In this document: piece after piece, positions 3,385-61,073 of the stretch
Numbering within the stretch: position 1 is the stretch's first letter
Layout: each line of letters begins with the position of its first letter
From: a virus
Reading direction: 5' to 3' (one strand)
DNA: 64,000 bases
IMG/VR virus record: IMGVR_UViG_3300024518_005299
Span: 62,001 to 126,000 of that record
The notes under the pieces: generated by a model
The model's input: the letters and a program-made list of their open reading frames with translations, nothing else
Told to the model about the DNA's origin: nothing
Database searches by the model: none
Translations under genes and position numbers: made by a program

Positions 3385-3614
3385 TGAAGTATATGGAATA
3401 TAAAGAAGTTAGGGCGCCAGATCAAGTTTTAGTGCATCTAGAAAAGAAGGCAATGGAGGTAGGACAGGATCCGAGCTTGTTCTGGCAAGAGGCTGGCTAT
3501 TATGATTTTCTGACTGAGCTTTCCAAAGACGGGTGGCGTCCTGTTTGGGTTAGCTTGCGCTTCCCGCTTATTGTGGTAGAGCGTGAAGTAATTAAAGAAG
3601 AAATCGAGAAATAG
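3384..3614 (+). CDS. Hypothetical protein, 76 aa
   Basis: Small soluble protein of unknown function, translationally coupled to the polymerase gene by a TAATG overlap. It is rich in charged residues with a helical first half, and its C-terminal half (GWRPVWVSLRFPL) looks like a short beta hairpin. No signal peptide or membrane segment is seen. It is the last gene before a promoter-like element, so it probably ends the polymerase transcription unit. Confidence 0.7.
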   Translation: MKYMEYKEVRAPDQVLVHLEKKAMEVGQDPSLFWQEAGYYDFLTELSKDGWRPVWVSLRFPLIVVEREVIKEEIEK

Positions 3615-3616: not shown

Positions 3617-3645
3617 CACGATTTTATTTTTTTGACACATAATAG
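3617..3645 (+). promoter_or_regulatory. Promoter-like 29 bp element, copy 1
   Basis: One of four copies of a conserved 29 bp block in intergenic DNA. It begins CACGATTTTA and ends GACACATAATAG. CATAAT (3638-3643) matches a sigma-70 -10 hexamer at 5 of 6 positions, and the CACGA block 16 bp upstream sits where a -35 element would. The ATG of the next gene begins at 3650, exactly 6 nt after CATAAT, so a transcript starting at the usual distance would have almost no leader. Promoter function is inferred from conservation and position. Confidence 0.7.
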
Positions 3646-3649
3646 GGAT

Positions 3650-4156
3650 ATGGCTGAAATTGTCACAACTATTGATGGTATCCACGGTGATATCAAAATT
3701 GCCATTTATGATGGCGAAGAAAAACAAACCATGGAATTTAAGTGGTGTGTTTTTGATGAAGATGGGTCAACAGGATTTATGACATCTTTTGCCCAGCATC
3801 CTATCGTAGTTACTGAGGTTGCTGCAGAACAATTTGTGCGGATCATCCTTAATAGTTTGATACGAACCTTTGAACTTTCGAAAGAAGATTTAAAGATTAT
3901 TAATCATTTCGGGGAGTTGATCCCTGATGTACAATTTTTGCCTCCAACCTTTCAAGGGAACGAGTCTGACATTATGGCGCTAGTAGCTCAACAAGATAGC
4001 TTATTAAAACTTTATGCTATGTATGAAGAGATCAACGTCTTAAATGAAGACCTCGTAGACCTAGCAAGGGAGGAAGGTATTTTAGATGATTTCTTAAGCC
4101 TTATTCAAATACGAGCTTCGGGAGTCTTTTTAGCGGTGAAAAAACCAAGTCAATAG
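3650..4156 (+). CDS. Hypothetical protein, possibly translated from a leaderless mRNA
   Basis: Acidic protein of about 168 aa with no family recognised. The first ~70 residues look like beta strands (an IKIAIYDGEEK-type hairpin); the rest is mostly helical. I chose the ATG at 3650 rather than the in-frame TTG at 3632 because the TTG lies inside the promoter-like element, ahead of the predicted transcription start. No Shine-Dalgarno sequence precedes the ATG. It sits ahead of the SSB gene, so a role in DNA metabolism is possible but unsupported. Confidence 0.75.
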   Translation: MAEIVTTIDGIHGDIKIAIYDGEEKQTMEFKWCVFDEDGSTGFMTSFAQHPIVVTEVAAEQFVRIILNSLIRTFELSKEDLKIINHFGELIPDVQFLPPTFQGNESDIMALVAQQDSLLKLYAMYEEINVLNEDLVDLAREEGILDDFLSLIQIRASGVFLAVKKPSQ

Positions 4157-4166
4157 GGAGTTAACA

Positions 4167-4574
4167 ATGGATCAAGGTTTCGGACTAGTTGTGGGTCGTC
4201 TAACGGGCGACCCTGTAATCAAAGGAGAGGAGAACCCAGAGAAGCAACGGGCTCTCTTCACAGTAGCCTTTAATCGTGGGCGTGCTGATAATCGGAAGTC
4301 GAATTTTTTCGACTGTATTGCTTGGGGTAAGCGTGCAGATATTATGCGCGATTTTCGTAAGGGGTTTGGGATTTCTGTAACTGGTGATCTTGAGCAGGAC
4401 ACCTTTACTAACGCGGATGGCGACAAGCGTAGCCGTTGGCAGCTAAATGTAAGTACTATTACTGCTACTCAAAATCTTCGTCGTAGCGAAGCCTCTGGTG
4501 ATAATAATAGTGAGAGTGGTGGTGAAGTGCGCGTAGGCGGTTCGGCTGAACAAACTGCTGATATTCCTTACTAA
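4167..4574 (+). CDS. ssb: Single-stranded DNA-binding protein
   Basis: OB-fold SSB that coats single-stranded DNA during replication and recombination. The N-terminal half has typical SSB strands: GLVVGRLTGDP, the FTVAFNRG strand, FFDCIAWGKRAD and a long GISVTGDLEQD strand. A Ser/Gly/Asn-rich linker follows from about residue 110, and the protein ends in DIPY, close to the DDDIPF-type tip that recruits partner proteins. Length (135 aa) is normal for a compact phage SSB. A GGGAG ribosome site precedes the ATG. It lies between the polymerase and sigma genes, fitting a replication and expression module. Confidence 0.93.
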   Translation: MDQGFGLVVGRLTGDPVIKGEENPEKQRALFTVAFNRGRADNRKSNFFDCIAWGKRADIMRDFRKGFGISVTGDLEQDTFTNADGDKRSRWQLNVSTITATQNLRRSEASGDNNSESGGEVRVGGSAEQTADIPY

Positions 4575-4586
4575 GTAAGGTTGGTT

Positions 4587-5228
4587 GTGATAACATTGTA
4601 TAAGATGGAAGAATCTGTTGATAAGGTTTGTGCACAGCATCGTGGATTGATTAGATCATTGATCAATTCTGTTGTGGTGAATAATCCATCAGTTGTTGAC
4701 GTTCAAGATTTACAACAAACTGGTGCTTTGGCATTGATAGTTGCACTCCAATCATATGATCCATCAGTTGGTTCTTTACCATCTTACATTCGTCAGTGTG
4801 TCCGTCGCGCTCTTTTAGAGCAAGCTAATTCATTCTCTAGTGTTTTCACTGTGGATGAGAAGGTGCGTCGTCAAGCTAATGCCATTATTAGAATGCGCGG
4901 CGAGGGGTTGAAGGACGAAGTTATCATGACTCGGCTCGGGATTAAAACCCGGGCCACATTTTTATCTCTATTGGGACTAGTTGAAAGTCATACTGTAGAC
5001 ATTAATCAAATCGATGTAGAAGCTGAGGCTTCGGTTGAAGAAAAGAGTATCTTTAAGGTACTTGAAGAGATTGGTCTAGTTGAATCAGAAATGCAATTTA
5101 TCAATTTAGTCGTCAATAATTATTCAATGGATGAAATTATAAAAGAAATGGAGATGAGCCGTTCTCATCTTTATACAATTAAAGCATCCATTCGTGACAA
5201 GATTTTGGCATGGGGTCAGGATTACTAA
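4587..5228 (+). CDS. Sigma-70-family-like factor
   Basis: Probable phage sigma factor that would direct host RNA polymerase to phage promoters. A region-2-like segment (about residues 34-78) contains DVQDLQQTGALALIVALQSYDP followed by SYIRQCVRRALLEQA, the pattern of the -10-binding helices of sigma-70 proteins. A region-4-like helix-turn-helix lies near the C-terminus (YSMDEIIKEMEMSRSHLYTI). The middle is shortened compared with host sigmas. The start is uncertain: GTG at 4587 has AAGG upstream, while ATG at 4605 lacks a clear ribosome site. The four conserved promoter-like elements in the window are obvious candidate targets, but that link is inference. Confidence 0.75.
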   Translation: MITLYKMEESVDKVCAQHRGLIRSLINSVVVNNPSVVDVQDLQQTGALALIVALQSYDPSVGSLPSYIRQCVRRALLEQANSFSSVFTVDEKVRRQANAIIRMRGEGLKDEVIMTRLGIKTRATFLSLLGLVESHTVDINQIDVEAEASVEEKSIFKVLEEIGLVESEMQFINLVVNNYSMDEIIKEMEMSRSHLYTIKASIRDKILAWGQDY

Positions 5229-5249: not shown

Positions 5250-8200
5250 ATGGGTATCGAGAGTAAAGAAGGTTACAAGAAACGTATTTTATTTGTTGGA
5301 GAGGCGTCGTTCCTCAACACAGGATTTTCTAACATTTATGATCAGCTATTGCCTCGACTAGCTGCAACTAATAAGTATGAGCTTGCCGAGCTTGGTTCGT
5401 ACGCTGGTGATGATGACCCAAGGATCGCAAGCCACATTAAAGGTCAGTGGAAATTCTACGGTAATAACCCTCTCACACCCGAGGAGCAGGCGGCATTCAA
5501 TCAGGAAGACCCCGCTCAACCTGGGCAGAATACTAATCAATTTGGACGTTGGAAGTTTGATGCTGTTCTAGCTGATTTTCGTCCCGACATCGTTATTGAT
5601 ATTCGAGACTGGTGGATGGTGGCGTTCCAAGAGCGAAGTCCATTTAGGAAATACTTTGGTTGGTTGGTTATGCCAACAGTGGATTCTATCCCTCAGAGAG
5701 AAGAATGGATTCGAACGTATATTGATGCTACTTATGTAATGGCATATTCCGATTTTGGTATTGATTCCTTGCGTAAGTCTTCTCCTAGGTTGGAGTTTAA
5801 ATTTGATCCCCCAGAGAAACCTGGGTTTGTTGGTCTTAATAGACCGCATGGTAAATTACACCCCAAGCCTCTGCGTCCTGGCGTAGACCTTAAGACGTTT
5901 TATCCACGGACTAACGAAGAGAAGGGGAAGTTAAAGCAAAAATGGGGTGTTAAACCTGATATTCCAATCATCGTTTTAGTGCAAAGGAATCAAGCGCGCA
6001 AGCGGATCGCGGAAGTAATCTCTTCTTTTGCCATGATGAAGAATAAATATCCAGATAATGACATGATACAAAAGTCTATCTTGTTAATGCATTCTGCATG
6101 GCCAGATAATACTTTGTCGATTGACTTTCCTAGAGAGATCAAGCGTATTCAAACAGGATATCATGGCGCTCCCGTTAGTCGTAAAGGCATTATGCAGGAG
6201 ATCCATTCGACATTCATGTGTCAAAATCAAGCATGTGGAGATGTATTTATTGCGCCATCTATCACGCTAATAAATGGCCCTGTCATTATGTGTCCTAGTT
6301 GCGGACAACAAAGCGCTCGCACTCCCACTACGGGCTTTGGCATTACTCGCGAACAGCTATCAGAAGTGTTTGGCATGGCTGATATGATGGTGCAGATGAG
6401 CATTGCAGAAGGATGTTTTGCTAAAGGAACTTTAATAACAACTAGCGAAGGATTAAAGCCAATTGAGGAGATGAAAATTGGCGATTCGATTTTGAATCAT
6501 AAAGGTGATTGGGCTCCAGTGCATGACGTTTGGGAAAATGATAATCCTGGATGTATAGAAATCAACGTTGCGGGTGATCCTAATTCTGTTATTGTTACAA
6601 AGAATCATAAGATTTATATTTCACCTACAGAAAAGAAACGAGCTGATGAGTTAACATTAGATGACTATGTAATACGTCCAATTGATATGACAGAACTTCG
6701 TCGTGATGAATTGATCGTTGAATTAGAGGACGAGGATAATGTTATGATTAATGGTAAAATGCATCATAAATCAGAACGTTATTTTAATGGATATCCTACA
6801 AAAACAACTATTAATTCTGTTGATCTTGCAAAACATGGATATTTTCTTGGTGTATATATCGCAGAAGGATCAATCACTAATCACTACGTTAGCATAGCCT
6901 TATCTAAAGATGACAATCCAGAGATGGCGCAATCAGTATATGACCTCGCTGCTGATCTAGGTGTTAAAGTTTATGATCGACCTAAAGAGAATAATGGAAG
7001 AGAGTTAACTTTTAGCTCTCACGCTTTTAGTGCGAAATTAGGATCATTATTTGGTTACAATACCAAAGATAAAAAGATTCCATTAGAGTTTATGCAAGCT
7101 CCAAAGGATGTTCAGCGAGAATTTATTGGTGGTTGGTTTGATGGAGATGGAACTCTAGAGAAGCCATTAGTTTCAACGGGTAAAATGAGTCATCGATCAC
7201 TTACTACCCACACTCAAACATTGGCATATCAATGGCGAGACTTACTTGCTCGTTTTGGTATTGTAACATATCTTTATAAAACTAAACGAAATAATTTAGA
7301 ATATGTCGTAAAGGTTTATGGTCATCAGGCTTACTTGTTTGATGTTTTGATCGAGTCTTCAAAAGCACAAAACAGTGGGTATAAACCTACCAAACATACA
7401 AGAGAGTCTTTTAAAATTAAGATAAAAAATGGTTACATTTATTACAAAATTAAAAACATAAAAGATTCTGATTATGATGATTTTACATACAATCTTACTA
7501 TTGATAAATCAAGTGAGGATAGTGACATGGTTTCTAGTTACTCGCTTGGAACATTTAGTGTTAAAAATTGTGGAATGCCAGTTCAGGAAGGCAAGGCGTG
7601 TGGCGTGCCAGCACTAGTAACAGATTACGCCGCTCTTTCTGAAAAGGGCGGCATCCCTAATTATGAACATATCAATAAAGACACCTACAATGTTCATCTA
7701 GGTGGTAAAGCTATGAAGGTTTCGCAATTATATTATGAACCAGAGACCACTACTTGGCGCGCAGCAACTTCTATGGAAGACTGTATGAATAAGATCGCTG
7801 GCATGCTTAGCTCTCCTGAGGAATTAGCACAAATGAGTTTAGACGCTCGGAAATGTGCCGAGGAACATTATGATTGGGATAAGAATTGGAAGGAGTGGGA
7901 GTTTATTTTTGATCATATCACTCCCTTAGATCGTGATACTACATGGGATAAAGAGCTGTCATTGATTGATATTGATACCACCCAGCCATCTCTAGATCTT
8001 AATGATTCTGACTTTGTTGTTTGGTGTTATACGAGACTATTAGGTTATAGCATGAATGATATCGACGAAGAGGGGCATCGTAACTGGATGCAAAAACTTG
8101 CAGTCGAGTTGCAGAGGGGTGTACCAGCCGGGAAGACCCGCAATGAAATCGCAGAATATTTCCGCCAACAGGCAGAAGCACAAAATCAGGTTGAGACACT

Positions 8201-8273
8201 ACGGGCTGGCCAAAAGGCTATCCCGGCTAGTACTACAAAATCTGACGACGCGTTTGAGGCAATTATAATATGA
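5250..8273 (+). CDS. Glycosyltransferase (GT4-like, GT-B fold) interrupted by an intein
   Basis: Glycosyltransferase with an N-terminal Rossmann start (KRILFVGEASF) and, after splicing, the C-terminal donor-site motif EGCGMPVQEGKACGVPAL, the E-x7-E region of GT4 enzymes. The intein occupies residues 389-773, leaving an extein of about 622 aa. Four cysteines (C324, C329, C348, C351) form a zinc-ribbon-like insert in the GT domain, an unusual feature. The last ~130 residues are acidic and helical. The 3' end overlaps the next glycosyltransferase gene by ATGA. It starts the glycan island; donor and acceptor are unknown. Splicing is needed to rebuild the donor site. Confidence 0.85.
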   Translation: MGIESKEGYKKRILFVGEASFLNTGFSNIYDQLLPRLAATNKYELAELGSYAGDDDPRIASHIKGQWKFYGNNPLTPEEQAAFNQEDPAQPGQNTNQFGRWKFDAVLADFRPDIVIDIRDWWMVAFQERSPFRKYFGWLVMPTVDSIPQREEWIRTYIDATYVMAYSDFGIDSLRKSSPRLEFKFDPPEKPGFVGLNRPHGKLHPKPLRPGVDLKTFYPRTNEEKGKLKQKWGVKPDIPIIVLVQRNQARKRIAEVISSFAMMKNKYPDNDMIQKSILLMHSAWPDNTLSIDFPREIKRIQTGYHGAPVSRKGIMQEIHSTFMCQNQACGDVFIAPSITLINGPVIMCPSCGQQSARTPTTGFGITREQLSEVFGMADMMVQMSIAEGCFAKGTLITTSEGLKPIEEMKIGDSILNHKGDWAPVHDVWENDNPGCIEINVAGDPNSVIVTKNHKIYISPTEKKRADELTLDDYVIRPIDMTELRRDELIVELEDEDNVMINGKMHHKSERYFNGYPTKTTINSVDLAKHGYFLGVYIAEGSITNHYVSIALSKDDNPEMAQSVYDLAADLGVKVYDRPKENNGRELTFSSHAFSAKLGSLFGYNTKDKKIPLEFMQAPKDVQREFIGGWFDGDGTLEKPLVSTGKMSHRSLTTHTQTLAYQWRDLLARFGIVTYLYKTKRNNLEYVVKVYGHQAYLFDVLIESSKAQNSGYKPTKHTRESFKIKIKNGYIYYKIKNIKDSDYDDFTYNLTIDKSSEDSDMVSSYSLGTFSVKNCGMPVQEGKACGVPALVTDYAALSEKGGIPNYEHINKDTYNVHLGGKAMKVSQLYYEPETTTWRAATSMEDCMNKIAGMLSSPEELAQMSLDARKCAEEHYDWDKNWKEWEFIFDHITPLDRDTTWDKELSLIDIDTTQPSLDLNDSDFVVWCYTRLLGYSMNDIDEEGHRNWMQKLAVELQRGVPAGKTRNEIAEYFRQQAEAQNQVETLRAGQKAIPASTTKSDDAFEAIII
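6414..7568 (+). mobile_element. Intein with LAGLIDADG endonuclease in the glycosyltransferase
   Basis: Residues 389-773 of the glycosyltransferase frame. It begins with Cys (CFAKGTLITTSEG) and has a block B TxxH (TKNH). Two LAGLIDADG motifs follow (GYFLGVYIAEGS and FIGGWFDGDGTL), and it ends SVKN followed by Cys as the first downstream extein residue. It sits inside the EGC/GMP donor motif. The usual penultimate His is Lys (VKN). Inteins lacking this His can still splice, but sometimes slowly. The junctions give a natural GT4 sequence when joined. Confidence 0.9.
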
Positions 8274-11597: not shown

Positions 11598-12400
11598 TGG
11601 TTAATATCTCTCATATCACTAGTTGTTTTAATAGTGAGCAGTTTCTAGATGGATTAATTGGTAATCTCCTACAACAGAGTGATGAAGACTTTGAGCATAT
11701 CATTGTAGATAGTGCATCCACTGATAGTAGTGTTGAGATCATCAAACGCTGGCAGCAACTAGATCCGCGAATTAAGCTTATAGAACAGCCCACGCGCACA
11801 AATTATGGCACCTCGTGGATGATAGGATGGCAGCAGGCTCAGGGTAAAATTGTTTGCAACTCTAACTCTGACGATAGGTCGTATCCTTGGCGCGGCACTC
11901 AAGTTATTAAAGCTGCACTAGATGCAAGTATTCAATCAGATACTAATAAGCGTTTTTATTACGGTGGTTATGAAACACGGGTTGATGGCGTAACCACAGC
12001 CAAGGGTTATCCGCCGCCGTATACAGAGCACGACCTACAGCAATTCTTTCGCTGTGGCGTGCATGTACATTGGGATAATGCGCTGCGCAATGTTGTGGAT
12101 TGGCCAACTGTGTTTCGCGCAGGCGCTGAGTATAGATCGGCCTTTGATTACTGGCTCGTACTATACTTTACTTCTCTAGGTGCAATAGGTGTCTCTATCC
12201 CCAACTGTTTTAGTATATACAACCAGAGAAAGGACTCGTTAGAACAGTCAGATAAGGAGAGAAGCAGCTTTGAAGCATTGCGCGCTATCTCTACTTTCTA
12301 TCCTAGTGGCCTCTCAATGCGTGACTTTGAGACTAAAACCAAAGTGGAGTCTCCTGAGTATTATAAAAAATATCAGGATTTTCTATCCGAATTCGTTTAA
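11597..12400 (+). CDS. Glycosyltransferase family 2
   Basis: GT-A fold enzyme of 267 aa. The start ISHITSCFNSEQFLDGLI and HIIVDSASTDSSVEIIKRW are the nucleotide-binding strands of GT2 proteins, and NSNSDD (~88-93) is the DxD equivalent. Full-length for a compact GT2 and soluble, with no membrane helix. It is the last gene of its unit: promoter-like copy 2 overlaps its 3' end. Confidence 0.88.
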   Translation: MVNISHITSCFNSEQFLDGLIGNLLQQSDEDFEHIIVDSASTDSSVEIIKRWQQLDPRIKLIEQPTRTNYGTSWMIGWQQAQGKIVCNSNSDDRSYPWRGTQVIKAALDASIQSDTNKRFYYGGYETRVDGVTTAKGYPPPYTEHDLQQFFRCGVHVHWDNALRNVVDWPTVFRAGAEYRSAFDYWLVLYFTSLGAIGVSIPNCFSIYNQRKDSLEQSDKERSSFEALRAISTFYPSGLSMRDFETKTKVESPEYYKKYQDFLSEFV

Positions 12401-12414
12401 TCGACGCATAATAG
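12386..12414 (+). promoter_or_regulatory. Promoter-like 29 bp element, copy 2
   Basis: Same 29 bp architecture as the copies near 3.6, 28.0 and 45.4 kb. It runs from TCCGAATTCG to GACGCATAATAG and overlaps the end of the upstream gene. CATAAT is at 12407-12412, and the next ATG (12419) again lies exactly 6 nt downstream with no ribosome site between them. Confidence 0.68.
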
Positions 12415-12418: not shown

Positions 12419-12640
12419 ATGACGAGACTTATCAGTGTCTGCATAGTCCTATTTGAGGTTTTGCTCTTAGCACTAGGTGTTGTCGCGCTTTGCTATCCGT
12501 TTACGTTATTACCACATCCAAGCAACGGACCACGGACACCTGAGCAATTGGAAGCTTTTAAGGAGCACGTAGTCCTATTACCTGCGGGGGTTATTTTAAT
12601 AGCCTTGGCAATTCAAAGGTATTTTAGATCTCATGAATGA
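12419..12640 (+). CDS. Small membrane protein with two predicted transmembrane helices
   Basis: 73 aa protein with hydrophobic helices at about residues 4-30 and 50-66, joined by a polar loop (PHPSNGPRTPEQLEAF), and a basic end (QRYFRSHE). The ATG follows promoter-like copy 2 so closely that a leaderless message is predicted. Function is unknown; small inner-membrane proteins of this type in phages are sometimes exclusion or lysis factors, but nothing here decides. Confidence 0.72.
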   Translation: MTRLISVCIVLFEVLLLALGVVALCYPFTLLPHPSNGPRTPEQLEAFKEHVVLLPAGVILIALAIQRYFRSHE

Positions 12641-13472
12641 TATAACAACTAAAGACAAAACGATTGTCGTCAGCAACATTCCTTTAATGAAATGTATCGA
12701 CGGTTTTCAAAAATGGGAATGGGTAAATGATAAGCAGAAAGAGTTTCTACTAGAGTATGCTAGGAAGCGCCATCTGCTATCTGACTTTTCTGATGAAGAA
12801 CTATTCGGACTCACTGCGTACTCAGCAGCCGAAGTTAATGCTTTCCTTGCCGAGCATGGTTTTGATATCGTCCTTCAGGATCATTCACACGTTCTTGCGA
12901 ATGAGCCCCCTGGTTCGATAGTGATATACATAGCATCTATTCTAAAGCTTGTCTTTGAATGGGACGGCATAGAAATCACCATTAAAGACAAATACCAAGG
13001 AACCTATCTATCAAAAAACCTTAGCTTTTTCGTTTCCTCAAAACATGATCAGCCTATCGTGCAGATTAAGTCTGGAGGAGATGACATCTATATAACCAAG
13101 GCCGAGCCCTCACTACTCTCTGAGCTAGATGATCTCCCATTACATGTTTGTGATGTATTCGATCGTGTAGAGTTTCCGTCCATTGAGTATGATAAAGTTA
13201 TAGATGTTTCGTGGATGGTTGATATGAATTCACCTCATGATATGGTGAGAGTTCTTGAGGCTGTGCAACAAGATAAATTCAGCATGAATCATAAAGGTGT
13301 GAAGATAGAGTCAGCCGCTGCTGTAGCCATACTTGCTAGTGGATGCGCCACCCCCTTTTTCAAACCTGTTGTTCTCACTATTGATGAACCGTTTGTATTT
13401 TGGGCGCGGCGTAATGGAGAGACATATTTTAAAGCTTATTTTGCGCAGGACTCATGGGTAAAAATAGCATGA
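12633..13472 (+). CDS. Serpin-like protein (C-terminal half), 279 aa
   Basis: The C-terminal ~100 residues follow the order of a serpin. FPSIEYDKVIDVSWMVDM resembles the helix and strand before the hinge. NHKGVKIESAAAVAILASG (219-237) resembles the HKA/EAAAATA hinge. A short reactive-loop-like stretch and VVLTIDEPFVFWARRNG (246-262) match the serpin C-terminal signature at all but one position as I recall it (E252 where R/K/H/Q/S is usual). The protein is shorter than cellular serpins (~375 aa), and its N-terminal half is not recognisable. There is no signal peptide. If real, it could inhibit a protease; the genome itself encodes a trypsin-like protease near 58 kb. The assignment is by eye only. 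Confidence 0.45.
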   Translation: MNDITTKDKTIVVSNIPLMKCIDGFQKWEWVNDKQKEFLLEYARKRHLLSDFSDEELFGLTAYSAAEVNAFLAEHGFDIVLQDHSHVLANEPPGSIVIYIASILKLVFEWDGIEITIKDKYQGTYLSKNLSFFVSSKHDQPIVQIKSGGDDIYITKAEPSLLSELDDLPLHVCDVFDRVEFPSIEYDKVIDVSWMVDMNSPHDMVRVLEAVQQDKFSMNHKGVKIESAAAVAILASGCATPFFKPVVLTIDEPFVFWARRNGETYFKAYFAQDSWVKIA

Positions 13473-14293
13473 AGCATGGTGTTTATCAAATACGGAATAC
13501 TCAAAATGGCAAGATTTATATAGGTAGCTCTATAGACATTGTTGCCAGGTGGCGAGGACATAAAGGTGATATAAAATATCATAGGCATCATTCTAGTAGA
13601 TTGCAATATGCATGGTATAAAGATGGAGCTAATGTGTTTGTTTTTGAAATTTTAGAAGAATGTAATTTAAATGAATTAGAACAACGTGAACAGTATTATT
13701 TGGACACTATGCTATTTGCTAGTTGTAATGATAACAGATTTTATCGTTTGGGATATAACAATTCTAGAGATGCTAGTCAAAAAACAGTAACAAATAAAAC
13801 TAGGATGAAGATGTCACGGGCGGCTAAGTTAAAAGCAAAACCATCACACATCACTCGACAACGAATGTCCGAAGCACAACAAGGCAAGCGATTGGGGGAA
13901 TTATCACCAGGAGCCAAGTCATCTACTCAAGATGTTAAGCAAATGTTGCTTATGGCTATCAATGGATGTTCTGATAGTGAGATTGCTCAAAAATTTGGTA
14001 GAACTATTAAGTCTGTAAATAACATTATTAATGGTAGGACCTGGCCTCATATTAAATTAGACGGTAAAGATCAAGGGAAACTAAAAATCATGAGATCTTT
14101 AAATAGAAATAAATTGAACGCTCGTAAAAGCGGAGAACTAAATGGTAGGAGTAAATTGACGCGACATATAGTTTGGGATATTAAAGATCAAATTGCATTA
14201 GGGTTTTCAAATGTTGAGATTGCCAAACGTTATGATGTTTCTCCAAGTACTATTAGCGGTATTAAAAGGGGCAAGACATGGAAAGACGTGTAA
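13469..14293 (+). CDS. GIY-YIG homing endonuclease, copy 1
   Basis: Free-standing homing endonuclease. The GIY-YIG core starts GVYQIRNTQNGKIYIGSS (residues 4-21), with the later conserved REQYYLD helix. A basic linker leads to two helix-turn-helix repeats of the form SDSEIAQKFGRTIKSV...GRTW and SNVEIAKRYDVSPSTISGIKRGKTW, the DNA-binding tail of this paralogue family. I chose the ATG that overlaps the upstream stop (ATGA). The 3' end overlaps the next gene by 16 nt. It is AT-rich relative to its neighbours. Confidence 0.88.
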   Translation: MKHGVYQIRNTQNGKIYIGSSIDIVARWRGHKGDIKYHRHHSSRLQYAWYKDGANVFVFEILEECNLNELEQREQYYLDTMLFASCNDNRFYRLGYNNSRDASQKTVTNKTRMKMSRAAKLKAKPSHITRQRMSEAQQGKRLGELSPGAKSSTQDVKQMLLMAINGCSDSEIAQKFGRTIKSVNNIINGRTWPHIKLDGKDQGKLKIMRSLNRNKLNARKSGELNGRSKLTRHIVWDIKDQIALGFSNVEIAKRYDVSPSTISGIKRGKTWKDV

Positions 14294-24720: not shown

Positions 24721-25723
24721 AGTTCTACTGGCATGTCTTCAAAGCGATTTTGGTCAAGACGGCATTCAAAAGTTTGATGATCAGGGTAAGTTTATTAATC
24801 CCTCCTGGGAATTCGAAAACGTTTATAAAGAATGGAAGCAATTAGAAGACGAAGGGTTGGTAGAACTGGAGACCTTTTGGCTAGATAAACAATCTGACGC
24901 TGACCGTGATCGATTAGTCAGTCTTGCTAAAGAGGTAGATTTTATCTATCAGGCGCCAGTTACCCACGCCCTAGGCATCCATCTTCCTCAAGCTCAAAAA
25001 ATTATTGAGGGTGGGACGCCCATTGTGAGTTTTCACCCAGACCTTCACTTGCGTTATAAACATCCTTCCGGGGATCGATTCGTGCATTCTAGGGTAACAG
25101 AAGGATACGACACCCATACGATCACTCCCGCTAAACACATGATGCAGCAACTAGAAGATGATGGAGTAAAGGCATGCTGCATACCATTCGGGATTCCATC
25201 GTCGTGCGACAGGGCGCTAGATGTAGAGCAAATATACGACGTCTCCTTCGTGGGGCAGAAGCATGGTCTACGTGAGCAGGTTGTCTCCCAGTTGCGCGGA
25301 GCTGGCATTCAAGTGCATACCTGGGGTCACTTCTGGCCAGATCACAAGGACCACCATGGGCGTCCTGAGACGTCTGAGATGGTGCGCATCTTTAACCAGT
25401 CGAAGATCAATCTCAATCTCCGCTGGTGCTCCCGAGACGCTAATTATGGTCAAATTAAGGGGAGGGATATGGAATTAATGGGGTGCGGTGCTTTTATGTT
25501 GGCGTCTCAACATGCTGAGTGTGATGACTTTCACGAGCTATATACACCAGATAAGGAATTCGCTGAGTATCATTTTGTAGATGAAATGGTCGAGGGAATC
25601 AAATATTGGTTAGATAATGACGTTTCGCGCAATGCTGTAGCTATGAATGCTTATCATAAGCGCAAGGATAATCTTTGGCAAACTAGACTACGGGGCTTCC
25701 TTGCCGATTGGGGTACTTGGTAA
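24707..25723 (+). CDS. CgeB-like glycosyltransferase, second copy type
   Basis: 338 aa GT-B like protein. YKVLLACLQSDFGQDGIQKFDD starts the N-terminal domain. YDVSFVGQKHGLREQVVSQLRGAGI opens the donor domain, and INLNLRWCSRDANYGQIKGRDMELMGCGAFML is the CgeB-type donor-site segment. It is distantly related to the protein at 18.4 kb. Its stop overlaps the GIY-YIG start (TAATG). Confidence 0.78.
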   Translation: MKKYKVLLACLQSDFGQDGIQKFDDQGKFINPSWEFENVYKEWKQLEDEGLVELETFWLDKQSDADRDRLVSLAKEVDFIYQAPVTHALGIHLPQAQKIIEGGTPIVSFHPDLHLRYKHPSGDRFVHSRVTEGYDTHTITPAKHMMQQLEDDGVKACCIPFGIPSSCDRALDVEQIYDVSFVGQKHGLREQVVSQLRGAGIQVHTWGHFWPDHKDHHGRPETSEMVRIFNQSKINLNLRWCSRDANYGQIKGRDMELMGCGAFMLASQHAECDDFHELYTPDKEFAEYHFVDEMVEGIKYWLDNDVSRNAVAMNAYHKRKDNLWQTRLRGFLADWGTW

Positions 25724-26436
25724 TGCAAGCTGGTGTTTATAAAATAAAAAATCAAATAAATAATAAGTGCTATATTGGTAGCGCTATTGATGTTCAAATA
25801 CGTTGGACTATTCATAAATCTCAACTAGTTAATCAGTGTCATCACTCAATTCATTTACAACGTGCTTGGAATAAGTATGGAGTAGATACTTTTATATTTG
25901 AGATCCTTGAAGAATGTGATCCGAAACAGTGTTTGGTGCGTGAACAGTACTATTTAAATACTTTATTATTTGCTAGTCATGATGATAAAAGATTCTATGA
26001 ATTAGGTTATAATATTTGTCGTCAGGCGGATAACGTTATGGGTGGTCGTAAACATTCTCAAATATCTAAGATGAAAATGTCTAAGGCTCACAAGGGTAAG
26101 AAATTGTCAGAGCAAACAAAGCAAAAAATGAAAAGACGGTTTCAAAATTCTGAGGATCATCCAATGTATGGCAAAACTCATACTGATGAAGCCAAGCAAA
26201 AAATTAGTGAGGCTGGTCGAGGAAGGATTACCTCCATTAAATGTAGGAAGGCGCTCTCTAATGCTAATCGTGGAGAAGGAAGCTTTCATAGTAAATTAAC
26301 GGAGAGATCAGTGAAAGAGATTAAAAAGATGATTGCAGATGGCAAAGGGACCTCTATGATTGCGCGCAAGTATAAGATTTCACCATCTAGCATTTGCGAT
26401 ATCAAAGCGGGCAGGACGTGGACTTATATAGAATGA
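25723..26436 (+). CDS. GIY-YIG homing endonuclease, copy 2
   Basis: 237 aa. GIY-YIG core GVYKIKNQINNKCYIGSA (4-21), REQYYLNTLLF helix, then NUMOD3-like repeats (GGRKHSQISKMKMSKAHKGKK and GKTHTDEAKQKISEAGRGR) and a terminal helix-turn-helix, TSMIARKYKISPSSICDIKAGRTW. Strongly AT-rich. It fits between two genes with a one-base overlap at the start and is followed by a normal ribosome site (AAGGAG) for the next gene. Confidence 0.9.
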   Translation: MQAGVYKIKNQINNKCYIGSAIDVQIRWTIHKSQLVNQCHHSIHLQRAWNKYGVDTFIFEILEECDPKQCLVREQYYLNTLLFASHDDKRFYELGYNICRQADNVMGGRKHSQISKMKMSKAHKGKKLSEQTKQKMKRRFQNSEDHPMYGKTHTDEAKQKISEAGRGRITSIKCRKALSNANRGEGSFHSKLTERSVKEIKKMIADGKGTSMIARKYKISPSSICDIKAGRTWTYIE

Positions 26437-27958: not shown

Positions 27959-27987
27959 CACGAATTCGTTATATCACCACATAATAG
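27959..27987 (+). promoter_or_regulatory. Promoter-like 29 bp element, copy 3
   Basis: Same 29 bp block, CACGAATTCG to ACCACATAATAG, with CATAAT at 27980-27985. This is the only copy whose downstream gene has a leader: an AGGAGG ribosome site at 27991-27996 and the ATG at 28003. Confidence 0.68.
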
Positions 27988-28002
27988 GGTAGGAGGTGCC
28001 TG

Positions 28003-28359
28003 ATGTTTGGATCAAAGAAGACAGAAGAACTGCATGGATTATTTGCTAGCATGATCAAACGGATTGATCGTTTGGACAACAATGGCAACGCGATAAGGGA
28101 TCGAATTAGAGACCTTGAGACTCAAAATGACGTGCTACGCGTCAGAATTGAGCAATTAGAAAAGAAGCAGGAGCAGTTACGTGGCGGTCTTAAGGGGTTG
28201 GTTTACGACGAGCCTTTTACCCTACCTATAGAATTTGTCTCCACAGCAGTTGATGTGCCAATAGTTGACCATGTCCACGTTAATAATGACCTCGCTGGGT
28301 GCCATCCGGAAGAATGCATCTATTGTCATCGGGAGTTGAATACGCATAATAATGACTAA
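28003..28359 (+). CDS. Coiled-coil protein, 118 aa
   Basis: An N-terminal heptad-like coiled coil (about residues 8-65, including LETQNDVLRVRIEQLEKKQEQL) is followed by a C-terminal segment with HVHVNNDLAGCHPEECIYCHREL, whose Cys and His residues could bind zinc. Strong AGGAGG ribosome site. Function unknown. It overlaps the next gene by 8 nt. Confidence 0.72.
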   Translation: MFGSKKTEELHGLFASMIKRIDRLDNNGNAIRDRIRDLETQNDVLRVRIEQLEKKQEQLRGGLKGLVYDEPFTLPIEFVSTAVDVPIVDHVHVNNDLAGCHPEECIYCHRELNTHNND

Positions 28360-32860: not shown

Positions 32861-33507
32861 TGGGAAAATTCATAGATCTGACAGGAGAGATATTTAGCAG
32901 GTTAACTGTTTTGCGTTATGTCAGTAATAATACATGGGGTAATGCTCAATTTTTATGTGAATGTAGCTGTCTCGCTAAAACACAAGTAGTAGTTACTGGA
33001 TGCAACTTGCGTTCTGGCAATACCAAATCTTGTGGATGTTTACAAAAAGAAGCAAGAGTGAAATTTACATACATGCATACAACACATGGTGCTAGTAAAA
33101 ATGGATATCATACTAAAGAATATAGATGTTGGCGACGTATTAAAGAAAGGTGTTATAATCCAAATCATGAACATTACGAGCATTATGGAGATAGGGGTAT
33201 TACTATGTGCTCAGAATGGCTTAATTCTTACTCCACCTTTTTAAAAGACGTAGGCGAGGCGCCAACTCCTAAGCATTCCATTGACCGCATTAATACCAAT
33301 GGTAATTATGAACCTGGTAATTGTAGATGGGCCACTCCAACGGAACAGGCTAATAATAAAAGAAATAATTTAGTGATAGAGGATAAGACTTTGGCTCAAA
33401 TTTGTAAAGAAAAAGACTTACCATATGCTTCTATTCATGCTAGAATTAAAAAACTCAATTGGTCAATTGAAGAGGCAATCAATACACCCATAGGACAAAA
33501 ACGATGA
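32860..33507 (+). CDS. HNH-type homing endonuclease, copy 2
   Basis: 215 aa paralogue of the gene at 9.7 kb. Zinc-ribbon-like [10 protein letters not shown]...KSCGCL, then [27 protein letters not shown], and the HNH-like core [13 protein letters not shown]...NCRWAT. The C-terminal helix-turn-helix has [21 protein letters not shown]. One-base overlap with the ColD-like gene at the start and ATGA with the next gene at the end, so it separates two genes of one sugar pathway without damaging either. Confidence 0.85.
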
Positions 33508-35630
33508 TTTATGATAATTCAACTATTCTGATCACTGGAGCTGGGGGGTTCCTCGGTCATCATACAGTTAAAGCGTTTAAAGAGTATAAAAACGGTGGGA
33601 CTAATGGTGCTCGTAAGGGTATAAAAATTTTGATGCCAACACATAATGAATTAGATCTTTTAGAAGAAGATGACATTTCTTGTTATATGACAGAACATCA
33701 ACCTGATATCGTTATTCATCTAGCTGCTATATGTGGTGGGATCGGAGCTAATAGGGAAAGACCAGGAGAGTTTTTGTATAATAACCTTATAATGACTACG
33801 AACTTGATTGAATGGTGTGCCCGTCTAACTCGTAATCAGGATGGTCCTACTATTCATAAGTTTGTTGGTGTTGGTACTGTGTGCTTTACATCTGATGCAT
33901 TTATCAAAACTGGGAATAGTTATACTACTATTGATAACATTTCTTTAGATCATAAAGTTAGTAGTAGAAATTTTGCCGATTGTTCTGTAGTCGACATTTT
34001 TGAAAGACAATATTCAGGTAATTTATATCATATTAGACCATATGGGGCGGAAACGTTGACGGTTACTTCCGAGCATCCATTTTTAGTTCTTAGGAATCAA
34101 AATGAAATATGGGTTGAAGCACAAGATATAGTGGATACTGATAGATTAGTCATACCTATTTATAAACCGACTAAAAGATCGACAGTTGTACGGATTCCTC
34201 AATTCGAATGTAAATATCCGGTTGCTAATCTAAAAAATACTCATCCGTATCATTTACCATCTGAGTTAGTTGTTGATAAAAATATTGCTCGACTATTTGG
34301 ATGGTTCCTAGCAGAAGGATGTACTAATAAACAAGGTATTAACTTATATTTTGGTGATGAGCCAGATCAAATTCGGGATATTGCCGACATTACTCATCAA
34401 TTAGGTTTTAGTTCTCAACCAAAAAATATTCCAAACCAAAAGGGATCACGTTTAGATGTTAATAGCTACCAATTGAGAGATTTTTGTCGTCAACATTTTT
34501 ATACAAGTCAAGAAATTCATCGCTCCCACACTAAGAAAATTCCTGATTTTGTTTTCAGTTTACCAGATCAGCTACAGTTAGTCTTTCTGAGAAGTTTTAT
34601 AGATGGAGATGGCCATATTGAGTATGATTCTCGTAATCAAAAATTGAAATCAATACAAATTACTACCACATCTAGGTGCTTAGCATACCAGATAAGAGAT
34701 ATCATGTTACATTATGGCATATTTGGTAATATTCATCATAGATCAGCTCCAGGAATAGCTAAAATTTGTGGACGTTACGTTAATGCCCGTGAATCGTGGG
34801 TAGTTAAATGGACCGGACAAAATCTTACGAAGCTTTCAACATTGATATATCCAGAATTAGATGATCAAACAGCTAGGAAAAGTAGATGGGACGTTGTTGT
34901 TTGTGAAAATAGAGCGTATGTACCCATCTACCCTATTACTACTAGTCAATCTACTCTGAGTGTTTATAATTTTGGAACCGTTGACGAAACCTATACTGCT
35001 AACGGTGTTGTAGTTCATAATTGTAGTTATCCTAAACACACTCCTATTCCCTTTCGGGAAGAAAACCTATATAATGGGTATCCAGAGGAGACAAACGCAC
35101 CGTACGGGATAGCAAAACGAGTGCAACTAGAGATGTTAAAAGCATATCGCGCCCAATATGGGTTTAATGGCATCTATTTAATACCAGTAAATATGTGTGG
35201 CGAGTGGGATAATTTTGATGACTCTAGTAGCCATGTTATCCCTGCTATGCTTAAGAAGTTCCATCGTGCTAAGATGGAGAACGCATCTAGTGTCACATTA
35301 TGGGGTGATGGTTCAGCATCAAGAGAATTTTTATACGCAGGGGACTGCGCCGATGCTATTTTAAGAGCCACTTTACTATATGATGACTCTGAGCCAGTTA
35401 ATATAGGCACAGGTAATGAAGTCACCATCAAGGAACTTGCTGAAAAAGTAAGAAAAGTAGTGGGATATGAGGGGGTAATCCTGTGGGATATTAGTAAACC
35501 TAACGGGCAGCCTCGACGTTGCCTAGACACTAGTCGTGCTCGCGTTGGCTTTGGTTTTACTGCTAAAACCCCCTTGGATGACATGCTAGATCGTAGTTAT
35601 ACGTGGGCGCAGGAGAATGGAGTATTATGA
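33504..35630 (+). CDS. GDP-L-fucose synthase / ColC-like epimerase-reductase interrupted by an intein
   Basis: Extended SDR enzyme; the extein is about 328 aa once the intein (residues 127-506) is removed. It has NAD(P)-binding [10 protein letters not shown] near the start and [14 protein letters not shown]. The rebuilt active-site segment is [14 protein letters not shown], and YGIAK holds Y534 and K538 of the YxxxK pair. NMCGEWDNF...[12 protein letters not shown] and [17 protein letters not shown] match WcaG/Fcl. The family epimerises and reduces GDP-4-keto-6-deoxymannose to GDP-fucose; ColC does the same on the 3-deoxy compound. Where Fcl has the catalytic Ser of GSSC, this has T/V (GTVC). 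The ColD-like neighbour favours the ColC reading. Confidence 0.88.
33882..35021 (+). mobile_element. Intein with LAGLIDADG endonuclease in the GDP-sugar reductase
   Basis: Residues 127-506. It starts with Cys ([11 protein letters not shown]), has block B TxxH in VTSEHPFLV, two LAGLIDADG motifs ([10 protein letters not shown] and [12 protein letters not shown]), and a standard end VVVHN followed by Cys507. It splits the active-site strand GTV/CSYPK, so the enzyme should be inactive until splicing. All canonical splice residues are present. Confidence 0.93.
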
Positions 35631-45400: not shown

Positions 45401-45429
45401 CACGATTCTTTTTATTTGACACATAATAG
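45401..45429 (+). promoter_or_regulatory. Promoter-like 29 bp element, copy 4
   Basis: CACGATTCTT to GACACATAATAG with CATAAT at 45422-45427. The next ATG starts at 45434, 6 nt downstream, with no ribosome site between. It shares its last 12 bases with copy 1 exactly. A sequence like the separate 12-mer element (CTAGTGTATTTAT, 45363-45375) lies just upstream. Confidence 0.7.
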
Positions 45430-45433: not shown

Positions 45434-45766
45434 ATGAACTCATTACCACCAGACCTAATTCAAAAAATATGGTACGCCATCAGCCTTGGCACTAATCCAC
45501 ACGGCGATCCCGCCAAAGAGATCTTCGAGGCTTTCGTGACTATATTTATCGAGGAAAACGATCATTTTAGAGAGCAAATCTTAGAGCTAGGGTGCCAATT
45601 TAAAGAGGCAGCAGAGCGTGACGATGGGGACTATGGTGATATTCGTGCAGCTGCAGGGTGTGAATTCCTTTGTGAACATATTGTGACTGAGGTGATTCCA
45701 CATTACACCTACGAGCCAGAGGATGAAGACCCTAATGACGACATTTATCTTCTAGAGGATGACTAG
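45434..45766 (+). CDS. Hypothetical acidic protein, possibly leaderless
   Basis: 110 aa protein with helical N-terminal two thirds and a very acidic end (YEPEDEDPNDDIYLLEDD). No recognised family. I chose the ATG at 45434, directly after promoter-like copy 4; the longer in-frame ORF would start upstream of the promoter. Confidence 0.72.
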   Translation: MNSLPPDLIQKIWYAISLGTNPHGDPAKEIFEAFVTIFIEENDHFREQILELGCQFKEAAERDDGDYGDIRAAAGCEFLCEHIVTEVIPHYTYEPEDEDPNDDIYLLEDD

Positions 45767-46102
45767 ATGTCGGATCGTAAATTAGAGTTATCTTATAAGA
45801 TACAAGAACGAATCTTAATAGAGACTCGACAAGAGCTACAAGATGCGTTGGCAAATTTATTGGCTAGTCAAAATGAGGTTGATGTCTTAAATGAAAAAGT
45901 TATTGCATTAACTGAATATAAAAAGAAAACTGTAGACTCTTTCTTAAAAGAAGCAAGGAGCATCATTGATAATCAAAAGATGACCATTGCTGCACAAGCA
46001 GAAAAAATCAAAATGCTACAGACTAGGGTACAAAACGTAAGTAGAGAATATAACGAAGCCTATTCCAGAAGATCACCTATTACATGGTCCGAAGATAAAT
46101 GA
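45767..46102 (+). CDS. Coiled-coil protein, 111 aa
   Basis: Almost entirely heptad-like helix (residues ~10-95), with Leu/Ile/Val at coiled-coil spacing. Function unknown; perhaps structural or regulatory. It starts immediately after the previous stop and overlaps the ThyX gene by 4 nt. Confidence 0.72.
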   Translation: MSDRKLELSYKIQERILIETRQELQDALANLLASQNEVDVLNEKVIALTEYKKKTVDSFLKEARSIIDNQKMTIAAQAEKIKMLQTRVQNVSREYNEAYSRRSPITWSEDK

Positions 46103-47910
46103 CAATTGAAGTTAAAATTATAGAAGATTCTATTAGTCCAACTAGAGCACGCCTGACAACCTTTCAATTGAGGTATCCTAGGTTTATACATTGTTTTGAT
46201 GAACAAACTGAATTTTTATCTCAAATTAATGACGAGATTCCTCGGTTTAGATCATTTACTGCGATTAAACAGCTTCAATGTAAGATTGCCCAATATGAAG
46301 AGAGTGGAACAATATCATTTGTTTATCCAATGCGCGCTATTGAATCAACATATAGCGGTGATATGATAACTTTTGATAAGAAAAAATTCTCAATGAGCAC
46401 TACAGATGAACATCGTATATTTACCTTACGTCGTACTACAAACAACGTGTATTTACCAAATGTTGATTTGGCTAAGAATTTTGTTGAATCTTATATTGCT
46501 CATCGCCGTATTCCTCAAGCTGGGAGTTTATGCCAGACAGCTAGACAATACGATAATCCAGACGAAGCACAACTTATTGCATTTTATGTAGCAGATGGGC
46601 ATCGACCCAAAGCGGGTGCGCAGGTACAATTTCATTTTCGTAAACAACGTAAGATTAATAGGGTGTGTTTACTTTTGAATACCTTAGGAATTAATTATAC
46701 TAAAGCTAACTATGGCAAAGATACCGTGATTAGATTTGATACTCCAGAATGGGTATCTGATTGTTATGATAATAATGGAATCAAACAATATCCAGATAGA
46801 CTATATGGTATGACGTCTCGTGCCTTTGATGCATTTAAATTAGGCACTTTAGAATCTGATGGTTGTGAGGCTAATTCTGAAATAAATACAACATCTGTAG
46901 TTGCCGCCGAACAAATTCAAACACTGGCGTTATTGAATGGTATAGCGATGAACATCAGATCTTATCGTCAAAATGGTTATATCTCGTTGTATAAACAAAC
47001 ATATCAACAATACCCATACATTAGTCTACGTCCAGATAAAGATAAATTTCAAATATCCTCAGTAACTGATCAGGCGGTGTATTGTTTTACGGTACCATCC
47101 AATTATTTAGTAGTCAGACGTAATGGCGTTGCTTATATTTCGGGTAATTGTGAGGTAATGACGCACAGAACTTGGAGCAGGAACGCTTCATCTAGTCGCG
47201 CCATCCCCGCTAAGAAGCTTTTCGATATTATTGAGAAGGAGCCAGCACTACCTATCCATTGGGGTAAGAATCAAAAAGGAATGCAGGCTAATGAAGAAAT
47301 GGACGCCTTCCAGGCTCGTGCCTGCGAGGAGCTATGGTTAGAGGCAAGAGATAATGCGTTAGCAATAGCGCGCTCTTTAGAAAGTATGGGGCTGCATAAA
47401 CAAGTTGTTAACCGTATGATGGAACCCTGGGCGCATATTTCTGTAGTTTGCACAGCTACTGAATTTGACAATTTCTTTTTTTTACGCTGCCATCCAGCTG
47501 CTCAACCCGAGATGAGGGAATTAGCGGAGCAAATGGCGGATCTATATTTTAGTAATACACCACGTCGCCTTAATATAGGGCAGTGGCACCTACCATATAT
47601 AAAAGATGAAGAAAGATTTGCGCCTGGTAATTATAATAAACGTGGTGGGTTAAAAAATGAAGGTAGGTTAATCAAAGCATCTACTGCTCGATGTGCACGA
47701 GTATCTTACTTGACACACGATAAGAAAGAACCAGATATAGATGTAGATGTTGCATTGCACGATCGCTTGTTGAGTGATAAACATATGTCTGCCTTCGAAC
47801 ATTGCGCCACCCCTAATGTTGATCCGTCTGTCCATAGTGGAAATTTTAAAGGCTGGATCCAGTACAGAAAAATGCTCAAGAATGAGCAATGCACCAATTA
47901 TGAGCGATAA
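46099..47910 (+). CDS. thyX: Flavin-dependent thymidylate synthase interrupted by an intein
   Basis: ThyX methylates dUMP to dTMP using FAD and methylene-tetrahydrofolate. The spliced extein (~284 aa) reads LRYPRFIH then CEVMTHRTWSRNASSSRAIP, giving the ThyX signature RHRxxSxN...SxR as THRTWSRNASSSR. VVCTATEFDNFFFLRCHPAAQPEMRELAEQM is the later dUMP-binding block. The enzyme is full length once the intein (residues 32-350) is removed. With dUTPase, dCMP deaminase and ribonucleotide reductase it completes a dTTP route. Confidence 0.93.
   Translation: MTIEVKIIEDSISPTRARLTTFQLRYPRFIHCFDEQTEFLSQINDEIPRFRSFTAIKQLQCKIAQYEESGTISFVYPMRAIESTYSGDMITFDKKKFSMSTTDEHRIFTLRRTTNNVYLPNVDLAKNFVESYIAHRRIPQAGSLCQTARQYDNPDEAQLIAFYVADGHRPKAGAQVQFHFRKQRKINRVCLLLNTLGINYTKANYGKDTVIRFDTPEWVSDCYDNNGIKQYPDRLYGMTSRAFDAFKLGTLESDGCEANSEINTTSVVAAEQIQTLALLNGIAMNIRSYRQNGYISLYKQTYQQYPYISLRPDKDKFQISSVTDQAVYCFTVPSNYLVVRRNGVAYISGNCEVMTHRTWSRNASSSRAIPAKKLFDIIEKEPALPIHWGKNQKGMQANEEMDAFQARACEELWLEARDNALAIARSLESMGLHKQVVNRMMEPWAHISVVCTATEFDNFFFLRCHPAAQPEMRELAEQMADLYFSNTPRRLNIGQWHLPYIKDEERFAPGNYNKRGGLKNEGRLIKASTARCARVSYLTHDKKEPDIDVDVALHDRLLSDKHMSAFEHCATPNVDPSVHSGNFKGWIQYRKMLKNEQCTNYER
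46192..47148 (+). mobile_element. Intein with LAGLIDADG endonuclease in ThyX
   Basis: Residues 32-350 of the ThyX frame. It starts CFDEQTEFL, has block B TxxH in TTDEHRIF, and two degenerate LAGLIDADG motifs (LIAFYVADGHR and KLGTLESDGCEAN). It ends YISGN followed by Cys351. The penultimate residue is Gly instead of His. It is inserted just before the substrate-binding signature motif. Confidence 0.88.
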
Positions 47911-55548: not shown

Positions 55549-56169
55549 TTAAATATGACTCCAGTTTCTACCAGTTTTAATTTTACTAATACATGCTGGT
55601 TGAATATTAAATCTACGCGCAATTTCTTGCTGAGCTATGTCTTGTCGTAATAAAGTCTTGATTATTTTAACATCCGCTCCCGTCAGCTTCGCGCGAGGAT
55701 GATTTTCTCCTAAATATTTTCCTAATTTAGCCTGACGCATTTTAGCTTTGGACTCATCAGACAGTCTTCTACCCACACCATGTTTATGCCCCATCTTAGA
55801 TGCACTAATTTTAGCTTTAGCTGTAGCTGAACGTTTTACTCCTAGTGCACTTTTGGCTAATCTACATATATTATATCCAAGTTTATCAAAACGATTGTCT
55901 TTACAATTAGCAAATAGTATTGTATTTAAGTAATATTGTTCTCGTTCAATACAAAGTTGGGGTTCGCATTCTTCAAGAATTTCAAAGACGAAAGCATCAG
56001 CTTTATATTTATTCCATGCATTTTGGAGATGAAAAGAGTGGTGTATTAGTCGCCTTAGTTGACTTTTGTGTTGGCGCCAACGCCCATCAAGCCCTTCTTT
56101 ACCCGCAGCACTCCCAATAGACAGCTTGCCACTTACAAGGTTTTTGATTTGATAGACACCAGTATTCAT
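55549..56169 (-). CDS. GIY-YIG homing endonuclease, copy 5
   Basis: 206 aa. Core GVYQIKNLVSGKLSIGSAAG (the second Tyr of the YIG motif is Ser), REQYYLNTILF helix, NUMOD3-like repeats (GVKRSATAKAKISASKMGHK and GRRLSDESKAKMRQAKLG) and a final helix-turn-helix (AQQEIARRFNIQPACISKIKTGRNW). It is the only homing gene in the minus-strand structural region and sits seamlessly between two tail genes. The Y-to-S change could lower cleavage. Confidence 0.88.
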   Translation of the reverse strand: MNTGVYQIKNLVSGKLSIGSAAGKEGLDGRWRQHKSQLRRLIHHSFHLQNAWNKYKADAFVFEILEECEPQLCIEREQYYLNTILFANCKDNRFDKLGYNICRLAKSALGVKRSATAKAKISASKMGHKHGVGRRLSDESKAKMRQAKLGKYLGENHPRAKLTGADVKIIKTLLRQDIAQQEIARRFNIQPACISKIKTGRNWSHI

Positions 56170-60485: not shown

Positions 60486-61073
60486 CTAATCGTAGTATCC
60501 TGGCTGACTACCAGGCTCAGCATTAACGTTGACACCTGGAGGTGCTTTACGTTTTAACTTATCTTCCTGTTTAGTTTCTAAAGCTCGAAGTTTGCGCATG
60601 GCTTCTTTCTGAGCCCTTGCGCCCATAGTAAGTGAAGGTAAGGACCCCTCGTCGAATTTAGTAGACTCAAGTACAACCTTATCTGCTTGTACAGGGGTTG
60701 GCATTTTTAATCTATTAGTTGGATTTTCTGGGAACTCTAAAGGAGGTACGTCGTCATCCGGCATGACGTTCATAACGGGCTGTGGCATACTCCCAGGCCC
60801 CGCATCAAATGGGTCGCCCTGAACTTCGATATCGATTCCGGGCAAAGCAGGGACCAATCCCGGGGGAACTGGGTCACGATGCGTCGGCGTTTCTATCACC
60901 CTCACTGTCGTTTTATTATCCTGGGGTGCTGTTTCACCTTCTAGTTGTTCTAAAAGCAACCTCTTGCCTTCTTCCCCGACCTCAAACTCTTTGCCATCTA
61001 TATCGACAACAAAGGTAGGATCGTCCTTTTTGAGCGGTTGTTTGAGATAGTCACATATAATTATTCTAGCCAT
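60486..61073 (-). CDS. Hypothetical protein with Pro-rich linker, 195 aa
   Basis: The N-terminal ~48 residues (ARIIICDYLKQPLKKDDPTFVVDIDGKEFEVGEEGKRLLLEQL) form a compact beta-beta-helix unit reminiscent of Lsr2-type dimerisation domains. A long Pro/Gly/Asp-rich disordered region and a basic helical stretch (KEAMRKLRALETKQEDKLKRK) follow. The similarity is only suggestive. It lies 27 nt downstream of phoH with AGAGGAAA before the ATG. Confidence 0.65.
   Translation of the reverse strand: MARIIICDYLKQPLKKDDPTFVVDIDGKEFEVGEEGKRLLLEQLEGETAPQDNKTTVRVIETPTHRDPVPPGLVPALPGIDIEVQGDPFDAGPGSMPQPVMNVMPDDDVPPLEFPENPTNRLKMPTPVQADKVVLESTKFDEGSLPSLTMGARAQKEAMRKLRALETKQEDKLKRKAPPGVNVNAEPGSQPGYYD

Follow-up and report, generated by a model that had tools for sequence, protein, structure and literature searches.

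A conserved phage promoter-like element with a recurrent start-codon spacing predicts leaderless mRNAs in an uncultivated phage lineage

The window analysed here comprises 64,000 nucleotides, corresponding to bases 62001-126000 of a viral contig of 131,680 bases. A 29-bp element occurs six times in the whole contig, and four of these copies fall inside the window. The copies were named A (contig 52465), B (60799), C (65617), D (74386), E (89959) and F (107401), and all six lie on the coding strand, oriented with the genes (Table 1). The preliminary description of this DNA had placed four 29-bp copies at window positions 3617, 12386, 27959 and 45401, and all were found there at that length. The CACGA said to be common to the four is present at 3617, 27959 and 45401, whereas the copy at 12386 reads TCCGA. 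Intergenic DNA makes up only about 2.9% of the contig, and four copies (A, C, E and F) lie entirely within it.

Downstream of copy C, both in this contig (G000) and in three related phages (G001-G003), the operon comprises the gene for a 168-aa protein followed by those for SSB and a sigma factor. The 168-aa protein had no match in Pfam or PHROG, and no relative of the 73-aa ORF behind copy D was found. Copy A is followed by genes for a UvsX-like recombinase, a DnaB-like helicase, a primase and an exonuclease, copy B by DnaE (the gene at window position 7, assigned by similarity), copies D and E by an extended region that includes an NAD-epimerase gene and, farther downstream, RNR, and copy F by ThyX. 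The terminase and portal genes are located in the other half of the genome, without the element. The element probably drives the replication and nucleotide-metabolism half, whose genes are probably middle genes, and this division of gene content suggests a timing in mid-infection.

LAGLIDADG domains were observed at window positions 5250-8273 (glycosyltransferase), 33504-35630 (NAD-epimerase) and 46099-47910 (ThyX-like); the first two genes also have intein splicing matches. Several further genes (window 13454-14293, 25708-26436, 55549-56169 and others), whose starts read GVYQI(R/K)N or similar, resemble one another as well as copies in the relatives, and by their sequences look like GIY-YIG homing endonucleases.

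Table 1. Copies of the element and associated features (window coordinates unless marked as contig; + and -, strand)
Feature	Coordinates	Strand	Remarks
Copy A	contig 52465 = window -9535	+	intergenic
Copy B	contig 60799 = window -1201	+	within Zn-ribbon-like ORF
Copy C	3617..3645	+	CACGATTTTATTTTTTTGACACATAATAG; CACGA-N12-GACA-CATAAT-AG; intergenic
Copy D	12386..12414	+	TCCGAATTCGTTTAATCGACGCATAATAG; TCCGA-N12-GACG-CATAAT-AG; overlaps stop codon of upstream gene
Copy E	27959..27987	+	CACGAATTCGTTATATCACCACATAATAG; CACGA-N12-ACCA-CATAAT-AG; intergenic
Copy F	45401..45429	+	CACGATTCTTTTTATTTGACACATAATAG; CACGA-N12-GACA-CATAAT-AG; intergenic
A-rich stretch of copy C	3607..3611	+	about -43..-39 (UP-element position); 17-site alignment
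168-aa conserved gene, function unassigned	3650..4156	+	ATG at predicted +1; orthologues 63-67% identical
SSB, second gene of copy C operon	4167..4574	+	Pfam SSB 2.7e-14
Sigma-70-family factor, third gene of copy C operon	4581..5228	+	start probably near 4602
73-aa ORF, hydrophobic N-terminus	12419..12640	+	predicted leaderless; ATG 6 nt past CATAAT
Shine-Dalgarno AGGAGG	27991..27996	+	in short leader of copy E
118-aa gene, coiled-coil-like	28003..28359	+	behind copy E
110-aa gene	45434..45766	+	predicted leaderless; behind copy F; G003 homologue 34% identical over 87%
Sigma-like gene	contig 3714-4337		region 2 only, inserted Cys cluster; 76% identical in G001
Sigma-like gene	contig 66581-67228 = window 4581		regions 2 and 4
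Sigma-like gene	contig 128189-128893		regions 2 and 4; kept in G009 at 50%
TAGTGTATWA sites	40616, 45364	+
TAGTGTATWA sites	54462, 57109	-
TAGTGTATWA sites	contig 11615-47134		before structural genes

Several tests separated the six copies from the background. A loose form of the pattern matched the window 3 times against 0.35 expected. When a matrix was built from the six copies themselves, they scored 40-47 bits and the next place 7; this test is circular, and the fair one uses a matrix built solely from other phages. The latter returned exactly the same six copies at 25.3-34.0 bits, with the next best place at only 14.5 bits. In 60 simulated (Markov) genomes the best place averaged 11.3 bits with this matrix and reached 20.0 at most. 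A near-match on the reverse strand at contig 130732 was rejected, as it lacks the ACGA box and could be a TTGACA-type promoter instead.

Whereas a search for relatives with a single protein gave no result, a scan for CGA-N12-GACACATAATAG across 2.9 million viral contigs led to the related phages G001, G002, G003 and others. The scan matches L012, L014, L018-L021, L024, L026 and L030 are probably due to chance, none of them encoding a relative of a tested gene. Searches of GenBank phages with window bases 1-25000, the sigma protein (tblastn) and the protein at 3650 gave no match, and neither did two genome scans for a host or prophage. Relatives with roughly 60-75% protein identity carry the element at the same genes; for the phages found by the motif scan, identity to the contig is about 72% for DnaE, 68-74% for the sigma factor and 63-67% for the protein at 3650, and across the relatives the sigma factor at 4581 is 61-74% identical. 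G009 (175 kb) was reached independently by a second motif scan and by a search with the sigma protein, while G010, found through the sigma search, turned out to carry the motif. In every examined contig that covers the locus, motif and sigma gene occur together. Judged by gene order, G003 has orthologous counterparts of five of the six copies (A, B, C, E and F), and none was seen for copy D. Copy C retains its spacing before the orthologues in five other phages and copy F its 6 nt before the orthologue in G003; copy E has a positional counterpart in G003, and G009 has a similar copy. G003 also has a copy before its orthologue of contig gene 99205, a gene that lacks one in G000.

The anatomy of the element was derived from an alignment of 17 sites, numbered with +1 set 7 nt past the -10 box; motif, layout, conservation and ATG spacing are all read directly from the DNA. 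An A-rich stretch at -43..-39, with A at -41 in 17 of 17 sites, is followed by a box at -33..-29, mostly (C/T/G)ACGA with an invariant CGA at -31..-29, and by a spacer of 12 variable bases. Next comes an extended -10 element, GACACATAAT at -16..-7, made up of G-A-C-A at -16..-13 and CATAAT at -12..-7, with invariant C at -14 and -12; most sites continue with AG at -6 and -5. The CGA and AG letters vary slightly in a wider set of relatives. Thus -10 and -35 boxes stand at a conserved spacing on either side of a variable spacer, and since the A-tract occupies the proximal UP-element place, ACGA the -35 place, and the spacer is near the standard length, the layout is that of a promoter for a multi-subunit polymerase.

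The 3' part of the element invites another reading, as TGACACATAATAG presumably resembles the 3' part of the SP6 promoter. The element would then serve a single-subunit RNA polymerase of the SP6/T7 type, with +1 at the G of ATAATAG and a leader of 5 nt. We consider this very improbable. Instead of one block of about 23 bp (-17 to +6), as in T7/SP6-type promoters, conservation forms three blocks (-43..-39, -33..-29 and -16..-5) around a variable middle and extends to -43, far beyond the 23-bp footprint, while the G itself is replaced by another base in several copies. The single-subunit polymerase family PF00940 had no match in the contig, which may be incomplete, and was silent in the control genomes too; no domain of this kind was found in nine of the large proteins. 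The family phrog_414, tried as a guessed polymerase family, was uninformative.

An asymmetric site repeated in a single orientation is also what stoperators look like, and the element might in principle be an operator, a stoperator or some other DNA signal without promoter activity. This is exceedingly improbable given the -10/-35 layout, the fixed distance to an ATG, a Shine-Dalgarno sequence or a tRNA, and the near confinement of the element to operon starts. The promoter reading offered by the preliminary description is strongly supported by the -40/-35/-10 layout, the conservation at orthologous genes, the gene-wise orientation and a tRNA-linked copy described below. The element is best read as a phage-specific promoter class of the bacterial multi-subunit RNA polymerase.

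The distance from the -10 box to the start codon was surveyed at 28 sites in six phages. The ATG was exactly 6 nt past the box at 12 of the 28 sites and 7 nt past it at two, and no ATG occurred at a spacing of 0, 1, 3-5 or 8-10 nt. The remaining sites mostly have their ATG at 14-21 nt, and the intervening bases include GGAGG, GAGG or AAGGAA. The twelve 6-nt sites belong to families C, D, F, H and I, with the addition of one G009 site whose ATG opens only a very short frame. For the window, the earlier claims held: the ATG is exactly 6 nt past CATAAT at three of four copies (at 3650, 12419 and 45434), and the copy at 27959 has a leader with AGGAGG and its ATG at 28003. Every 6-nt case starts at ATG, and Shine-Dalgarno-like letters in the gap (AGGGAT, AGAAGT, AGAGGT, AGATAT, AGGGGT, AGAGAT, ATTAGT and AATACT over all cases) are absent or too close, in line with the earlier statement that no ribosome site precedes these starts.

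Family C retains the 6-nt spacing in six of six phages, its gaps being AGGGAT, AGAAGT, AGAGGT (twice), AGATAT and AATACT. The last two, in G009 and G010, have no Shine-Dalgarno letters, and therefore a Shine-Dalgarno sequence cannot be what family C conserves; the proteins of this family align from Met-1 among the relatives. In family F the 6 nt are kept between G000 and G003 at a protein identity of 34%. Approximately half of the gene families under the element have a short leader with a Shine-Dalgarno sequence instead. Judging from the start regions, the genome in general relies on Shine-Dalgarno sites, which were counted near the start of 59% of ORFs compared to 12% at a random position, the two countings being not quite alike. 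The proposal of leaderless mRNAs is thus well supported by the 6-nt spacing for a part of the copies, the genes at 3650, 12419 and 45434 being predicted leaderless, and does not extend to all of them.

In G009 a copy with one mismatch (14253; L114 1501-1608) precedes a tRNA-Ile gene, which begins 2 nt past the predicted +1. If this copy is active, the element works without a start codon and transcription starts no more than 8 nt past the -10 box. The latter limit bears on the idea that the element is a real promoter and its genes are not leaderless, either because the start is shifted by a few bases, because the mRNA reads through from upstream, or because another start codon is used. The leaderless reading is itself drawn from the DNA sequence, and in copies C and F the motif contains an in-frame TTG that precedes the end of the -10 box by 12 nt. 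However, the TTG of copy C is TAG in G002 and G003 and TGG in G001, while the proteins align from the ATG, and the Shine-Dalgarno-like letters of the 6-nt gap are too near the ATG and are missing in G009 and G010. We therefore regard this idea as improbable, and leaderless starts at the 6-nt ATGs as the preferred reading.

Two arrangements fit the favoured reading less well. A copy in G003 (18166, minus strand) has an ATG only 2 nt past the -10 box, which opens a frame of 18 codons that overlaps the start of the following gene by ATGA. Copy B, inside its Zn-ribbon-like ORF (contig 60674-61060, window -1326 to -940), has no start codon nearby. The corresponding motif of G001 and G002 is likewise inside an open frame, with an in-frame internal ATG 7 nt past the -10 box, which could, on the sequence, give a shorter, leaderless product.

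The contig encodes three sigma-like genes (Table 1). The one in the copy C operon (window 4581) scored 53.4 bits with the NCBIfam sigma-70/ECF model TIGR02937 against a cut-off of 42.9, covering regions 2 to 4 (residues 7-202), and also matched Pfam Sigma70_r2 (1.6e-7) and phrog_351 (1e-13). Its nearest solved structure is FliA; the structure model was poor (pLDDT 51-55) and too weak for fold comparison. In G009 and G010 the C gene and the sigma gene are kept at the same distance. A sigma factor with region 4 is expected for the ACGA class on account of its -35-type box, which points to the product of contig gene 66581 or 128189. The former ranks first because of its shared operon with copy C and its co-occurrence with the motif, and we put the odds that it is the cognate factor at about even. 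With three sigma-like genes the cognate factor is not fixed, and the sigma factor of the middle operon could serve late promoters instead.

This last point would also fit a scheme in which the -10 box is recognised by sigma-70 holoenzyme of the host and ACGA, at about -31, by a MotA-like activator from the phage, the operon's sigma being free for the second, late-type motif. CATAAT is near the sigma-70 -10 consensus and the -35 box is unlike TTGACA. Such a scheme, which would leave the leaderless reading unchanged, is a possible but unlikely one: the -10 element is conserved across 10 bases (GACACATAAT), beyond usual sigma-70 promoters, full-length sigma genes are present in the contig, and no MotA-like gene was identified among the genes that were assigned.

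The second repeated motif, TAGTGTATWA, was found at 13 sites compared to 2.0 expected. It is -10-like, with no -35 box by eye, and some of its sites are conserved in G001 and G003; it probably represents a late promoter class. At contig 15178 an ATG is 7 nt past TAGTGTATTA, the distance being 8 nt in G001, and this spacing suggests that late genes may be leaderless too.

Similarities to known systems are partial. T4 middle (MotA/AsiA) and late promoters, like the element, combine a -10 box with a phage-specific box near -30 and serve mid-infection genes; the box sequence differs, and no MotA or AsiA was identified. In T4, leaderless starts are not known to be the rule. Actinobacteria and Deinococcus-Thermus translate leaderless mRNAs routinely, many other phyla less so. 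In bacteria, leaderless genes are marked by a -10 box adjoining the ORF (PMC3160421; PMC12340547), and in Deinococcus-Thermus or TA-led leaderless genes the -10 element is, as here, about 10-12 bp before the start codon. These are host promoters with a short -10 box, in contrast to the long phage-specific element with a -35-type box. Most middle and late mRNAs of the Thermus phage phiYS40 are said to be leaderless (PMC3594737, a review), so both phages would use their own promoters to make leaderless mRNAs from a particular class of genes; in the present phage this is predicted for only about half of the families, and an associated sigma gene is present. A search with working controls found no IF3-like gene in the present phage. 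The phages phiEco32 and 7-11 are described (PMC4331800) as having a phage sigma factor and few well-conserved promoters, one of which feeds the sigma gene. The present phage resembles them in its phage-encoded sigma, in its few well-conserved promoters with one upstream of the sigma gene, and in probable middle and late classes with the host polymerase. In contrast, leaderless genes are not reported in the passages of PMC4331800 considered here, and the present sigma lacks a tblastn match among GenBank phages. Each part is known, namely leaderless phage mRNAs, a -10 box next to an ORF and sigma-fed promoters, and what is new is the combination and the motif.

The scheme that follows is inferred as regards where transcription starts, which sigma factor is used, when the genes are expressed and how they are translated. 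The element is probably a phage-specific promoter, often giving rise to leaderless mRNAs, that is used by the host core polymerase with a phage sigma factor. This pair would be its most likely reader, with the FliA-like factor whose gene is third in the copy C operon as leading candidate; that factor would then boost its own production. The predicted start of transcription is about 7 nt past the -10 box. Where the ATG is exactly at +1, the mRNA would be leaderless and initiated via the 5'-terminal AUG pathway, while at other sites it would begin just upstream of a Shine-Dalgarno sequence. More speculatively, and with rather low confidence, a single sigma-dependent promoter class may set both translation mode and timing, sorting the middle genes into leaderless and led ones, with the sigma operon leaderless.

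The motif belongs to a lineage without close GenBank relatives, and it provides a defined and testable promoter class for uncultivated phages that lack GenBank phage matches (as searched with the window DNA and the sigma protein). The two motifs together with the three sigma-like genes outline a testable transcription programme. The 6-nt rule also corrects miscalled gene starts, the TTG starts at 3632 and 45383 being probably false. More generally, it represents a start-codon placement for leaderless mRNA that is conserved over large protein divergence in phages. If the sorting of middle genes by translation mode is true, a leaderless sigma operon would let the switch go on operating when normal initiation by ribosomes is impaired in the infected cell.
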